NCBI RefSeq assembly: GCF_003003075.1
Contig: NZ_PVTX01000001.1
Span: 62,001 to 126,000 of the forward strand
Direction of reading: 5' to 3'
DNA: 64,000 nt
From: Isoptericola halotolerans
Lineage (GTDB): Bacteria > Actinomycetota > Actinomycetes > Actinomycetales > Cellulomonadaceae
Below the pieces are notes generated by a model, which saw nothing but the letters and a program-made list of their open reading frames with translations, had not been told where the DNA came from and ran no database searches. Within the stretch, counting starts at the first letter, position 1, and the number at the start of each line of letters is the position of its first letter. This document shows, piece after piece, positions 16,997 to 21,647 of the stretch. The translations under genes and the position numbers were made by a program.

Positions 16997-18835
16997 ATGT
17001 GCGGAATCGTCGGCTACGTCGGCCCCCAGCAGGCAGCACCCGTCCTCGTCGAGGGCCTGACACGCCTGGAGTACCGCGGCTACGACTCGGCCGGCGTCGC
17101 CGTGCTCAACCCGCGCTCGAGCGCCAACCCGTCGCGGGTGGTCCGCGCCCAGGGTCGTGTCCGTGACCTCGAGGCCGCCCTGCCCGCGCGCCTGGCCGGC
17201 ACCACCGGCATCGGCCACACGCGCTGGGCGACCCATGGCGAGCCCAGCGAGCGCAACGCCCACCCGCACACCTCGGCCGACGGCCGGGTCCACGTGGTCC
17301 ACAACGGGATCATCGACAACTTCGCGACGCTGCGCAGCCGGCTGGCCGACGACGGCGTCGAGCTCACCTCCGACACCGACACCGAGGTGGTCGCCCACCT
17401 CGTGGCGCGCGAGCTCGCGACCGGGCTGAGCCTCGAGGACGCGGTGCGTGCCGCCGTCGCGCAGATCGTGGGGACCTACGCCCTCGCCGTGCTCGACACC
17501 CAGACCCCCGAGCGGATCGTCGTGGCCCGCAACGGCTCCCCGCTGCTGCTCGGGGTGGGCGACGGCGAGATGTTCGTCGCCTCGGACCCTGCCGCGATCG
17601 TGCGGCACACCAGCCAGGTCGTGCTGCTCGACGACGGCGACTTCGCCACCGTCACCGCCGACGGCTTCCACAGCTTCACCGACGGCGAGGAGCGCACGGC
17701 GCGGGCCGCCGTCACGATCGACCTCACCGTCGAGGAGCTGGAGCTCGACGGCCACGAGCACTTCATGCACAAGGAGATCCACGAGCAGCCGGAGTCCGTG
17801 GAGCGGATGCTCACCGGGCGCCTCGACGACCGCTTCGGCACCGCCAAGCTCGCCGGCCTCAACCTCGAGCCGCGCGACCTGCGCCGCTTCGAGCGCGTCA
17901 AGGTGCTCGGCTGCGGGTCCGCCTACTACGTCGGCCAGCTCGGGGCCTCGATGATCGAGGACCTGGCGCGCATCCCCGCCGACGCCGAGCCCGCGAGCGA
18001 GTTCCGCTACCGCAACCCGATCATCGAGCCGAGCACGCTGTACGTGGTCGTCAGCCAGTCCGGCGAGACCGCCGACACGCTCTTCGCGGTGCGCGAGGTG
18101 CAGCGCAAGGGCGGCACCGTCGTCGGCCTCGTCAACGCCGTGGGCTCGTCCATCGCCCGGGAGGTCGACGGCGGGGTCTACCTGCACGCGGGCCCCGAGG
18201 TCGCGGTGGCCTCCACCAAGGCGCTGACGCACATGTCGATCGGCTTCGCGCTGCTGGCGCTGACCCTCGGGCGGGTGCACGACCTGTCGTTCGCCGACGG
18301 CCGGCGCATCATCGCCGGGCTGCGGGCGATCCCCGGCCAGATCGCCGAGATCCTGGCCGGCGAGGAGGCGCTCGCCGCCGCCGCGAAGGAGCTCTCGACG
18401 GCCCCGAGCCTGTTCTTCGTCGGCCGCGTGCGGGGCTACCCCGTCGCGCGCGAGGGTGCGCAGAAGTTCAAGGAGATCACCTACCGGCACGCCGAGGCGT
18501 ACCCGACGAGCGAGCTCAAGCACGGCCCGCTCGCCCTCATCAGCCCCGAGCTGCCGTCGGTCGCGATCATCCCGGACGACGACCTCGTGGAGCGCAACAT
18601 CACGGCCGCCCAGGAGATCCGGGCACGCGGTGGCGCCGTCGTCGCGATCACGCACCCGGGCGTCGAGCTCGGCGACGCGGCGACCTCCCGGATCGAGGTG
18701 CCGCGCAACGAGGTCGAGCTCGACCCGATCCTCCTGACGATCCCCACCCAGCTCCTCGGCTACCACGCCGCCGTGGCGCTCGGCGAGGACGTCGACCGGC
18801 CGCGCAACCTGGCGAAGTCCGTCACCGTGGAGTGA
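16997..18835 (+). CDS. glmS: Glutamine-fructose-6-phosphate aminotransferase (isomerizing)
   Basis: The 612-residue enzyme makes glucosamine-6-phosphate from fructose-6-phosphate and glutamine, the first committed step to UDP-GlcNAc for peptidoglycan. The class-II amidotransferase domain starts with the catalytic Cys (MCGIVGYVG) and shows GIGHTRWATHG and HNGIIDN. Two SIS domains follow (VVSQSGETADTLFAV; FFVGRVRGYPVAREGAQKFKEITY), and the conserved C-terminus is PRNLAKSVTVE. Length is normal. The cytoplasmic enzyme sits close to a peptidoglycan peptidase gene on the other strand. Confidence 0.97.
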   Translation: MCGIVGYVGPQQAAPVLVEGLTRLEYRGYDSAGVAVLNPRSSANPSRVVRAQGRVRDLEAALPARLAGTTGIGHTRWATHGEPSERNAHPHTSADGRVHVVHNGIIDNFATLRSRLADDGVELTSDTDTEVVAHLVARELATGLSLEDAVRAAVAQIVGTYALAVLDTQTPERIVVARNGSPLLLGVGDGEMFVASDPAAIVRHTSQVVLLDDGDFATVTADGFHSFTDGEERTARAAVTIDLTVEELELDGHEHFMHKEIHEQPESVERMLTGRLDDRFGTAKLAGLNLEPRDLRRFERVKVLGCGSAYYVGQLGASMIEDLARIPADAEPASEFRYRNPIIEPSTLYVVVSQSGETADTLFAVREVQRKGGTVVGLVNAVGSSIAREVDGGVYLHAGPEVAVASTKALTHMSIGFALLALTLGRVHDLSFADGRRIIAGLRAIPGQIAEILAGEEALAAAAKELSTAPSLFFVGRVRGYPVAREGAQKFKEITYRHAEAYPTSELKHGPLALISPELPSVAIIPDDDLVERNITAAQEIRARGGAVVAITHPGVELGDAATSRIEVPRNEVELDPILLTIPTQLLGYHAAVALGEDVDRPRNLAKSVTVE

Positions 18836-18844
18836 CGCGCCCCG

Positions 18845-19741
18845 CTACGCGGCGGGGGAGAACTCCCAGTGCCACGGCTCGTAGGGTCCCGCCCCGCCCT
18901 GGCGGGCCCAGGCCGGGTTGGTCCACCCCGCCGCGGGGCCGTGCTCGGCCAGCCAGGCCCAGCGGTCGCCGGAGTAGGACTCCGGGCAGATGTCGATCGC
19001 CAGGCCCCAGCCGTGGTTCGACGTGCCCGGAGCAGCCGCCAGGCCCGGCTTCTGGGCCTTGAGCACGACCTGCTGGTCGTAGCTGCGGTAGCCGTCCGTG
19101 ATGCACATCCGCTCGCCGAACTGCTCGACGTACGCGTCGTTCAGCGCGGCGAGGGCGGTCGCGGCGTCGGCGCGCAGGAGCACCGCGCCGGCCCACGGCG
19201 CGCAGAGGTCGGCCGTCGAGAGGCGGCCGTTGCTGCCCTGAGGGTCGATGCTCGGGTCGCAGCCCGGTGGCGGCACGCGCTCGTCCGGCGCGGCCGGTGC
19301 CGGCTCGGCCGGCACGATCTTGATCGCGTCCCGGTCGATGCGGTCGCCGTCCCGGGACACCTTGGCCCCCTGGTCGACGACGATCGCTTCCACTGAGCGT
19401 GGCGCGCGGGCCGTGCCGGAACGCGAGGCGGCCGCGCCGTCGGACCGCTCGGCGACGGCCCGCTCGGCCGCGGCCAGGGTCGCCGGGTCGATGGTCGTGG
19501 TGGCGCTGCCCTCGGCGTTGGCCTCCTCCGGCAGGACGGCGGGGGCGACGACGGCGGACGCGGTGGCCAGCGCGAGGGCGAATCCGGCGCCGACCCGGCC
19601 AGCGCGGGGCGGACGGGCGGCGCGCGCGGCACCGGTCGAGCGGGTCGGACCGGCTGAGCGGGTCGCACCGGTCGAGCGGGTCGCGCGGGGAGCGCGGGCG
19701 GGCGGCTCGGCGAAGTGCCGGCCGCGGCGCGCCCGGCTCAT
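18845..19741 (-). CDS. VanY-type D-alanyl-D-alanine carboxypeptidase (peptidase M15), secreted
   Basis: The 298-residue protein has a basic, repeat-rich N-terminus (units like TRSTGATRSAG), a membrane/signal helix (VGAGFALALATASAVVAPAVL) and a low-complexity linker. A C-terminal M15 domain carries the zinc motif SNHGWGLAIDI, the second His motif PWHWEF, and MCITDGYRSYDQQ. It probably trims peptidoglycan stem peptides outside the membrane. The start overlaps the stop of a 30-codon ORF as ATGA, so translation is coupled. Upstream lies a c-di-AMP riboswitch, the class that typically controls cell-wall hydrolases in actinobacteria. Confidence 0.88.
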   Translation of the reverse strand: MSRARRGRHFAEPPARAPRATRSTGATRSAGPTRSTGAARAARPPRAGRVGAGFALALATASAVVAPAVLPEEANAEGSATTTIDPATLAAAERAVAERSDGAAASRSGTARAPRSVEAIVVDQGAKVSRDGDRIDRDAIKIVPAEPAPAAPDERVPPPGCDPSIDPQGSNGRLSTADLCAPWAGAVLLRADAATALAALNDAYVEQFGERMCITDGYRSYDQQVVLKAQKPGLAAAPGTSNHGWGLAIDICPESYSGDRWAWLAEHGPAAGWTNPAWARQGGAGPYEPWHWEFSPAA

Positions 19742-19830
19742 CGGGCCCCCTCGCGGCGGCGCGGGGTCGGGGTGGTGCTGGACGTGGTCGCCCCGCCGGT
19801 GCGGCCGGGCGCGCGGGTGTGCCTGGTCAT
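19738..19830 (-). CDS. Short coupled ORF between riboswitch and VanY gene
   Basis: A 30-residue ORF, MTRHTRAPGRTGGATTSSTT followed by PTPRRREGAR, begins six bases after AGGAG at the 3' edge of the riboswitch. Its TGA overlaps the ATG of the M15 peptidase. It is rich in Arg, Thr and Pro and has no recognised domain. It is the first translatable frame after the aptamer, so ribosomes loading here would deliver translation to the peptidase. It could be a leader peptide rather than a functional protein. Confidence 0.55.
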   Translation of the reverse strand: MTRHTRAPGRTGGATTSSTTPTPRRREGAR

Positions 19831-19838
19831 CGTCATCT

Positions 19839-19990
19839 CCTGTCGCCTTCGGGGTTAGCTGTCGGATTCGGGTCGGAGACTGACCCGGCCGACGCGCACT
19901 GCGCGTCGGCTTCACCCCAAGGGCGCCGTGGCGCCCGTCGTTGGTTCCCCCGCCCCGTGTCTGCTTCGGTCGACGACGCACGGTGACAGG
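19839..19990 (-). promoter_or_regulatory. c-di-AMP riboswitch (ydaO/yuaA motif)
   Basis: Read on the minus strand, this 152-base leader has the recognisable ydaO blocks: GGGGGAACC near the 5' side, a GC hairpin, GGGGTGAAGCC, a second hairpin (CCGACGCGC/GCGCGTCGG), then CCCGAATCCGACAGCTAACC and a closing GGCGACAGG. CCTGTC at 19985-19990 pairs with GACAGG at 19839-19844 as the P1 stem. This class binds c-di-AMP and usually turns off cell-wall hydrolase genes; the downstream peptidase fits. The AGGAG site for the small ORF starts inside the P1 3' strand, suggesting control of ribosome access or early termination. Confidence 0.92.
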
Positions 19991-20036
19991 GCTCGGCGCC
20001 CGCGCGACGTACCCCGCGACCTGGCGAGGTAGGCAG

Positions 20037-20066
20037 AACCTACCCCGCCGGGACCGGGTTTGTCAC
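20037..20066 (-). promoter_or_regulatory. Promoter of the riboswitch-peptidase transcript
   Basis: The minus strand shows GTGACA, an 18-base spacer and TAGGTT, a near-consensus actinobacterial promoter about 47 bases upstream of the aptamer. It diverges from the permease gene at 20202. Confidence 0.6.
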
Positions 20067-20201
20067 GAACGGATAACGGCATGCCGGCTTCTGTCTCGGG
20101 TTGCCTCGGAGAGCGCCTGCGGTGCGCCTCCGGGTGCGCTGCTCCTCGGCGCCTGCCAGGATCGCGAGGACGGCGACCGACGGCGCGGGTGGGGCGGCGA
20201 C

Positions 20202-21647
20202 ATGGCGGAGCGGACTGACGGGGCTGGCCCCTCGACGGGCACCCGCGTGGGCGTGCTCACCCTCACCGCGATGGTGGTCGGGTCGATGGTCGGTGCCGGC
20301 GTGTTCTCGTTGCCGCGCCGCTTCGCCCAGGAGACCGGTGTCGCCGGGGCGATCGTCGCCTGGGCGGTCGCCGGGGCGGGCATGCTCACCCTGGCGCTGG
20401 TCTTCCAGCGGCTCGCGGTCCGCAAGCCGGAGCTCGACGCCGGGGTCTACGCCTACGCCAAGGCCGGGTTCGGCGACTACACGGGGTTCTTCTCGGCGGC
20501 GGGCTACTGGGCGAGCGCCTGCGTCGGCAACGTGACCTACTGGGTCCTCATCATGTCCACGCTGGGCGCGTGGTTCCCGCAGCTCGGTGCCGGCGACACG
20601 CTGCTCGCGGTCGCGCTGTCGTCCGCCGGGCTGTGGCTGTTCTTCCTGCTCGTGCGGCGGGGGATCCAGGAGGCCACGGCGATCAACAGGGTCGTCACCG
20701 TGGCCAAGCTGGTGCCGATCGTCGTCTTCGTGCTGATCGCCGTCTTCGTCTTCGACCCGGCCGTCTTCGCCGGGAACTGGGCGGGGGAGTCCTACGGGTC
20801 CCTCTTCGACCAGGTGCGCGACACCATGCTCGTGACGGTCTTCGTGTTCCTCGGCGTGGAGGGGGCCAGCGTCTACTCGCGGCACGCGCGCCGCCGGGAG
20901 GACGTCGGCCGGGCGACCCTGCTCGGGTTCGGCAGCGTGCTCGCGGTGTTCGCGTCGGTGACGATGGTGTCCTACGGGATCATGCCGGTGGAGGAGATCG
21001 CCGAGCTCCGGCAGCCGTCGATGGCCGGGGTGCTGGAGGCCGCCGTCGGTGACTGGGGGACCGCCTTCGTCAGCGTCGGCCTGATCATCTCGGTGCTGGG
21101 TGCCTACCTCGCCTGGACGCTGATGGCCGCCGAGGTGCTCTACGTGGCAGCCAAGGACCGCGACATGCCGCGCTTCCTCGCGCGCGCCACCGACCGGGAC
21201 GTGCCGGTGAACGCCCTGTTCCTCAGCACCCTGCTGTCGCAGGTCGTGCTGGTGGTCACCCTGTTCTCCGCCGACGCGTTCGACTTCGCGCTCGACCTCA
21301 CCGCCGCGATGTCGGTGATCCCGTTCCTGTTCGCCGCGGCCTACGCGCTCAAGCTCCGCGCGACGCGCGAGACGTACGACGGCGCCCCGCGGGCGACGCT
21401 GCGCGCCGACCTGGTGGTGGCGGTGCTGGCGACGGTCTACACCACGTTCCTGGTCTTCGCGGCGGGACTGTCGTTCCTGCTGATCTCCCTCATCTTCTAC
21501 GCCCCGGCGACGCTGCTGTTCGCGATGACGCGCCGTGAGCAGGGTCGGCGGGTGTTCGCGCCGGCCGAGCTGGTCGTCTTCCTGGCCGTCACGGCCGGGG
21601 CGGTGGCCGGCGTCGTCGGGCTCGTGTCGGGCTGGATATCCCTGTGA
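20202..21647 (+). CDS. APC-family amino acid antiporter (ArcD-like)
   Basis: The 481-residue permease has 12 predicted helices. The APC signature [20 protein letters not shown] lies at the start, with [10 protein letters not shown] and [20 protein letters not shown], as in arginine/ornithine and basic amino acid antiporters. It would exchange extracellular arginine for a product of the deiminase encoded 13 bases downstream. The ATG at 20202 gives the normal N-terminus; the open frame upstream crosses the divergent riboswitch promoter. Confidence 0.85.

Follow-up and report, generated by a model that had tools for sequence, protein, structure and literature searches.

The window examined here, a 64,000-nucleotide stretch of the Isoptericola halotolerans genome, holds a c-di-AMP (ydaO) riboswitch and a short leader ORF whose stop codon overlaps the start of vanY (Table 1), and together these elements probably form a c-di-AMP-sensing translational OFF switch that is relayed to vanY through the leader ORF by termination-reinitiation. 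The aptamer, the complementarity of its pseudoknot, the leader ORF, the overlap and the conservation of all of these can be read in the DNA.

Table 1. Features of the riboswitch-vanY locus, in window coordinates.
Feature	Position	Strand	Basis
GTTAT-n6-GTGAC element, likely promoter region with regulator box	20062..20077	-	shared with relatives
c-di-AMP (ydaO) aptamer, P1 to P1	19842..20000	-	RF00379; 5′ boundary from alignment, RNAalifold and pair counts
P2 5′ arm	19991-19985	-	alignment; contains CCTGTC 19990-19985
Pseudoknot loop strand GUCUCC (hairpin 19886-19870)	19875..19880	-	complementary to SD strand; loop-tail matching, 88 distinct pairs
Pseudoknot tail strand GGAGAU, holding four of five SD bases	19835..19840	-	pairing with loop
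Leader ORF, 30 codons, SD spacing 6	19738..19830	-	ATG 19830 to TGA 19740-19738
ATGA overlap, leader ORF stop/vanY start	19738..19741	-	sequence
vanY, 298-aa VanY (M15) D,D-carboxypeptidase-like protein	18845..19741	-	PF02557, alignment

When the whole window was scanned with cmscan, the only Rfam match to reach its gathering threshold was a single c-di-AMP (ydaO) riboswitch, RF00379 (minus strand, 19981-19829; 58.8 bits against a curated gathering score of 38, E 4.5e-11). Class membership is given by this covariance-model score above the cut-off, and the structural hallmarks of the family, a P1 closing helix and a loop-tail pseudoknot, were both found in an alignment of 12 aptamers and in a comparison of 88 loop/tail pairs; the ydaO-type aptamer recognised in the first-pass annotation was thus confirmed by the covariance-model search which that annotation had itself proposed. 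The source genome carries four RF00379 riboswitches and one diadenylate cyclase domain (PF02457, 96.6 bits).

Across the 12 aligned aptamers (11 from vanY loci and one from an nlpC locus), RNAalifold and pair counts placed P1 at 20000-19995 with 19847-19842. Five of its six pairs form in the window, with one G.A mismatch, and one pair is compensatory across the alignment. Paired cells made up 94.4% of P1, 90.5% of P2 and 98.6% of the pseudoknot, and 94.3% for the three helices jointly, compared with 40–48% in slid versions; two-sided changes were limited to P1 and P2. Upstream of the Rfam match, the block GCCGAGCCCTG(T/C)C is otherwise invariant, and we attribute the match starting too far 3′ to the long P2 loop. 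In the window, the 3′ arm of P2 has one extra base (GACA-C-GGG), and in the two of 12 aptamers where the 5′ arm changes from U-A to C-G (CCTGCC), its P2 partner changes as well. RNAalifold also offered an alternative in which the P2 5′ arm pairs with the adjacent GRCGGGG instead of GACAGGG, with P1 identical either way. The arms previously drawn for P1 (19985-19990 with 19839-19844) did not hold up: the 5′ arm belongs to P2, one pair out of six is broken in 11 of the 12 aligned sequences, no pair shows a change on both sides, and in the two CCTGCC relatives the supposed partner at the SD is left unpaired. Five of those six pairs, four of which make up the CCUG:CAGG block, nevertheless form in 10–12 of the 12 sequences, and the window alone has all six, so this strand may still engage in an alternative anti-SD pairing.

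Directly 3′ of P1 lies the SD of the leader ORF, AGGAG (19841-19837, minus strand), adjoining the P1 3′ arm at the end of the aptamer, where the first-pass annotation had put it. By complementarity, this SD is the 3′ strand of the loop-tail pseudoknot of the aptamer (19880-19875 with 19840-19835), the hairpin loop AGUCUCC (19881-19875) matching GGAGAU (19840-19835). In 39 distinct aptamers, the loop-tail helix averaged 6.5 pairs, compared with 4.3 when tails were shuffled, and across 88 distinct pairs the mean helix score of loops with their own tails was 5.63, against 5.14 when tails were permuted among loci (maximum 5.36 of 500) and 3.77 when they were shuffled (maximum 4.02 of 100). Loops and tails change together among types, as in GUCUCC/GGAGAU, UUCUCC/GGAGAA, ACUUCUC/GAGAGGU, GAUCUC/GAGGUC and CCCUUC/GAAGGG; three of the 88 pairs have just 2–3 base pairs, perhaps through misplacement of the loop by the hairpin finder. 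Among the 12 aligned sequences, the pairs of the pseudoknot are nearly constant and hence show no covariation of their own.

Downstream of the SD, the 30-residue ORF, the overlap of its TGA with the ATG of the following gene and the identity of that gene as an M15 peptidase were all recovered as first described, the last by PF02557 (43.5 bits; cut-off 25). An alternative first ATG of the leader ORF at 19836 is in the same frame and would give 32 codons, touching the SD. The VanY protein has an Arg-rich N-terminus and a hydrophobic segment, and its SNHGWGLAxD and EPWHWE blocks, which presumably hold the zinc ligands, are invariant in all 11 aligned VanY sequences.

Conservation of this arrangement was assessed first in a genus sample of 18 genomes, all of which have VanY matches and RF00379 (62 matches, 56 over the cut-off and six below). 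Of these RF00379 places, 35 were fetched, including all those adjoining a VanY match; by coordinates, none of the other 27 lies beside VanY. To the fetched places we added two riboswitch-vanY neighbours from named genomes (Promicromonospora sukumoe, L047, and Xylanimonas oleitrophica, L052) and, further afield in the family, 20 of 22 places that share the aptamer type, X. oleitrophica accounting for the remaining two, together with another 40 loci; Rfam scans of a set of 80 loci found the riboswitch in nine. One uniform rule (find the SD, take the best start 4–15 nt downstream, follow its ORF) was then applied to 97 distinct aptamers carrying the anchor motif, a comparison that covers, among the matches listed, the family and two class-wide loci, the other 28 of the 30 class-wide loci listed lacking that motif. 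Before vanY, 12 of 13 distinct aptamers drive an ORF of 7–45 codons with a 4-nt NTGA overlap (11 ATGA, one GTGA), and the remaining one, L005, the nearest relative of the window locus, is fused in frame and reaches vanY directly. Before other genes, the overlap occurs in 0 of 84 distinct aptamers, 80 of which drive the main gene directly; of the four left over, in L125, L126 and L214 the ATG-first rule skipped a main start at a GTG with better spacing, and the fourth, L212, is an nlpC with a shifted frame. The frame of this nlpC changes near codon 17, through either an assembly error or pseudogenisation.

The 12 leader ORFs, from 12 genomes, are 7, 22, 22, 23, 25, 26, 26, 27, 27, 30, 45 and 45 codons long, with like lengths in the close pairs L007/L008 (45 codons) and L142/L135 (27 codons); L135, from a second Promicromonospora genome, differs at four places in an otherwise identical 27-codon ORF and was merged with L047 by the duplicate filter in the locus count. 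The vanY start is supported independently by an M[KR]H N-terminus in nine of 13 loci, the window not being among the nine. It had been suggested that leaders be aligned to see whether the small ORF and its overlap are conserved: the architecture and overlap are, in 12 of 13 loci, but the peptides are not. The riboswitch-leader ORF-vanY arrangement occurs in Isoptericola and two related genera, where the riboswitch appears to control the small ORF. The riboswitch itself is an ordinary one; the leader relay is unusual, conserved as an architecture, and specific to vanY among the sampled riboswitch genes.

If the vanY start is taken to read NTGA, the SD-proximal start has a chance of 0.23–0.33 per locus of opening a frame that arrives there in the correct phase; multiplied across the 12 riboswitch loci this gives 10^-6.7, or about 10^-3.7 once they are collapsed to seven groups of relatives. 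The tree would move L009 to another group, which leaves the figure almost unchanged, and might join L006 to a group, which by our arithmetic weakens it to about 10^-3.2. L005 is 88% identical to the window locus and is its sister at 100/99, and has 80 nt fewer separating the leader start from the conserved RGRHFAEP. As a result of this shortening, the riboswitch ATG falls in the vanY frame and the two frames are fused, so that the riboswitch SD would still drive vanY. Disruption of the frame in a close relative had been named in advance as grounds for abandoning the coupling idea, and such a disruption was found; yet the SD of the riboswitch is still linked to vanY in L005 and the other 12 loci are intact, and the arrangement in L005 reads as a derived fusion that preserves this connection.

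Nor is the small ORF confined to riboswitch loci, as some vanY paralogues without an intact aptamer retain it. L030 and L033, neither of which is among the genus RF00379 matches, have a 26-codon ORF with an ATGA overlap, and in L035 a 35-codon ORF overlaps vanY by TTGA and stands next to what seems to be the final 34 nt, SD included, of an aptamer otherwise deleted; L035 is thus apparently a natural riboswitch loss in which leader ORF and overlap were retained. Here TTG was chosen as the vanY start because KHARH follows it, and a GTG further upstream was also offered by a lenient scan for overlapping ORFs. Paralogue L031 is fused and L032 starts directly, and the other aptamer-less VanY loci of the genus fell outside this reading: L034 (cut), L036 (the same as L031) and L041–L044 (without the motif). 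Outside the riboswitch set and the genus, the lenient scan flagged L061, L068, L078, L087, L122 and L123, five of which have GTG vanY starts and one (L087) an ATG.

Upstream of the aptamer, a -10-like box, GGTAGGTT (20044-20037, minus strand), lies 17 nt downstream of the GTTAT-n6-GTGAC element, and a sigma-70 consensus promoter was not found upstream of the window's aptamer. Both the window and 15 of 16 riboswitch relatives (L005–L014, L016, L046, L047, L052 and L133; not L128) have GTNAY-n6-GTGAC about 17–18 nt ahead of a TA-containing -10-like box, and the element recurs upstream of five vanY paralogues that lack an intact aptamer (L030–L033 and L035); we take it to resemble an MtrA box. 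In the window, a GlmS-type gene with GATase and SIS domains (16997-18835, plus strand) converges on vanY from one side, and a divergent amino-acid permease frame (19941-21647, plus strand) lies on the other; GlmS supplies the synthesis of cell-wall precursors. Judged by match coordinates, 15 of the 18 genomes in the genus sample contain a pair of riboswitches spaced about 1.2 kb from each other, and in the paired riboswitches L037, L039 and L040 the main genes, nearly all nlpC-like, are driven directly. In L045 and L046, the riboswitch is followed by nlpC and then by vanY as the next downstream gene, an order that may represent another route to control of vanY by the same switch. That order suggested that the leader ORF could be a decayed nlpC 5′ end, an idea rejected at the protein level: scored against a matrix of 28 NlpC N-termini, the 14 leader peptides ranked no higher than shuffled versions of themselves (mean z -0.003, lowest p 0.075).

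For the vanY locus, we infer ligand binding, masking of the SD and reinitiation, in the following order. At low c-di-AMP, the SD at the 3′ edge of the aptamer would be free, and ribosomes would translate the 30-codon ORF, stop at its UGA and restart on the overlapping vanY AUG. Binding of c-di-AMP would stabilise the pseudoknot, in which the loop GUCUCC would hold the SD strand GGAGAU, leaving the leader ORF untranslated and vanY not restarted. An SD-led upstream ORF with a stop that overlaps the downstream start, the arrangement by which we judged termination-reinitiation, was found here. The leader peptide itself is probably irrelevant, with the connection between riboswitch SD and vanY start being what is kept.

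How far vanY depends on this relay bears on an unlikely alternative, in which the small ORF is a chance occurrence or of no importance, vanY uses an SD of its own, and the target of the riboswitch is elongation or stability of the transcript. All of 14 loci have an SD for the leader ORF (-6.4 to -8.7; the set includes L030 and L033), while the stretch before vanY ranges widely: it is almost without an SD (-3.2 to 0) in five (four of the 12 riboswitch loci and L030), middling in four, and scores -7.0 to -10.1, about equal to or above the leader SD, in five, including the window, where GAGGGGG precedes the vanY ATG (-10.1 on the same scale). Good stretches of this kind could let vanY start by itself, and the discussion of one report describes effects on transcription by other ydaO switches (PMC9960051). 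Against this stand the near-absence of an SD in the first five loci, the contrast between 12 of 13 overlaps before vanY and none of 84 elsewhere, the phase between leader and vanY that is maintained despite many changes in length, and the result of a simple consensus scan of 19600-20150, in which no terminator-like hairpin was found. Because the SD before vanY is nearly absent in some loci and good in others, the window among them, some orthologues probably depend on coupling, while the gene in the window may or may not do so. The first-pass annotation had the small ORF as the point of control, with the peptidase reached by coupling, a proposal favoured by the overlap counts and the SD-poor vanY starts, but not as strict dependence, and with reservations that include the P1 arms, the fusion in L005, the good vanY SDs and the ORFs without an intact aptamer in L030, L033 and L035. 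About as unlikely as the transcriptional alternative is a reading in which vanY answers two inputs, low c-di-AMP and normal translation and termination on the leader ORF; in that event either c-di-AMP or translation stress would shut off a cell-wall hydrolase, and the leader peptide would be free to drift because ribosome passage alone is selected.

Two further accounts concern the leader frame itself. That vanY starts further upstream in its own frame, or that one gene has been split by sequencing error or programmed frameshifting, seems very improbable. The vanY frame in the window is open for 405 codons, L005 is one continuous frame from the riboswitch SD, and a vanY-frame start codon lies upstream of the vanY start in seven of 14 loci, among them L013 and L047, with ATGs 0–1 nt from the SD, and L010, where a GTG at spacing 8 would open the frame directly. 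Set against these, the other seven (the window, L006, L009, L011, L014, L030 and L033) have no vanY-frame start codon from the SD region to the vanY ATG, and no two of the 12 loci share an assembly. The substitution test was readable in one pair, L142/L135, most close pairs being too diverged inside the leader ORF, and by our reading its four changes are three synonymous and one non-synonymous in the leader frame, as opposed to one and three in the vanY frame. The chance is slimmer yet that the product of the leader ORF is a peptide with a function or a regulatory role, such as an attenuation peptide whose stalling sets vanY output. The presence of the ORF in 12 of 13 loci and the lengths kept in L007/L008 and L142/L135 would fit such a role, but lengths range overall from 7 to 45 codons and no shared peptide motif was seen among the 14 leader ORFs. 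Pooled leader GC by codon position was 0.75/0.77/0.79 (14 ORFs), against 0.72/0.73/0.92 in the first 80 codons of vanY, and the third-position excess of 0.033 was not significant (p = 0.18, random rotation, 14 ORFs), on which ground we rejected the leader ORF as a gene under coding selection; the window's leader ORF, with a GC3 of 0.97, stands out as a single case.

The preferred relay through the leader ORF resembles a system in M. tuberculosis, where, in the portion of the report available, a B12 riboswitch governs the SD-driven uORF uPPE2, which has an AUGA overlap with PPE2, and PPE2, without an SD of its own, needs translation of the uORF, mainly by termination-reinitiation (PMC11260477). 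Riboswitch, SD-driven uORF and AUGA stop/start overlap are thus common to both, whereas the ligand (cobalamin), the RNA fold and the target (ppe2) differ, and uPPE2 was studied by experiment at one locus while the vanY system is known from sequence, as an orthologue set with variable ORFs. Closer in aptamer is the c-di-AMP riboswitch of C. glutamicum nlpC, which belongs to the same family and also targets a cell-wall peptidase, and which the accessible text describes as an OFF switch, most likely translational according to its authors, who propose CUCC-GGAG pairing with the RBS; its target is NlpC/P60 and not VanY, and that text makes no mention of a leader ORF (PMC9960051). The same text states that B. 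subtilis ydaO acts by premature termination and that terminated transcripts of an S. coelicolor switch were reported in vitro (PMC9960051). A ydaO crystal construct (PDB 4QLM/4QLN) has a fold with a pseudoknot and, in its sequence, a CUCCUUC loop and a GAAGGAG tail, which by our own reading of the sequence are the pseudoknot strands; unlike the vanY aptamer, it is described, in the part of the paper at hand, without a translation start (PMC5393176). In the open-access literature, with few subscription journals covered, we found no paper joining a c-di-AMP riboswitch with an upstream open reading frame, and, on such riboswitches together with translational coupling, just a general riboswitch review.

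If the proposed relay is correct, c-di-AMP would be, to our knowledge, the second riboswitch class, after B12, to use a coupled leader ORF, and the comparative record would be one in which evolution keeps the start/stop link and its phase and discards the peptide and its length. The SD of an actinobacterial ydaO riboswitch would be built into the pseudoknot of the aptamer, a possible reason why translation can be controlled with no separate expression platform, and control of actinobacterial cell-wall hydrolases by c-di-AMP would extend to VanY carboxypeptidases.
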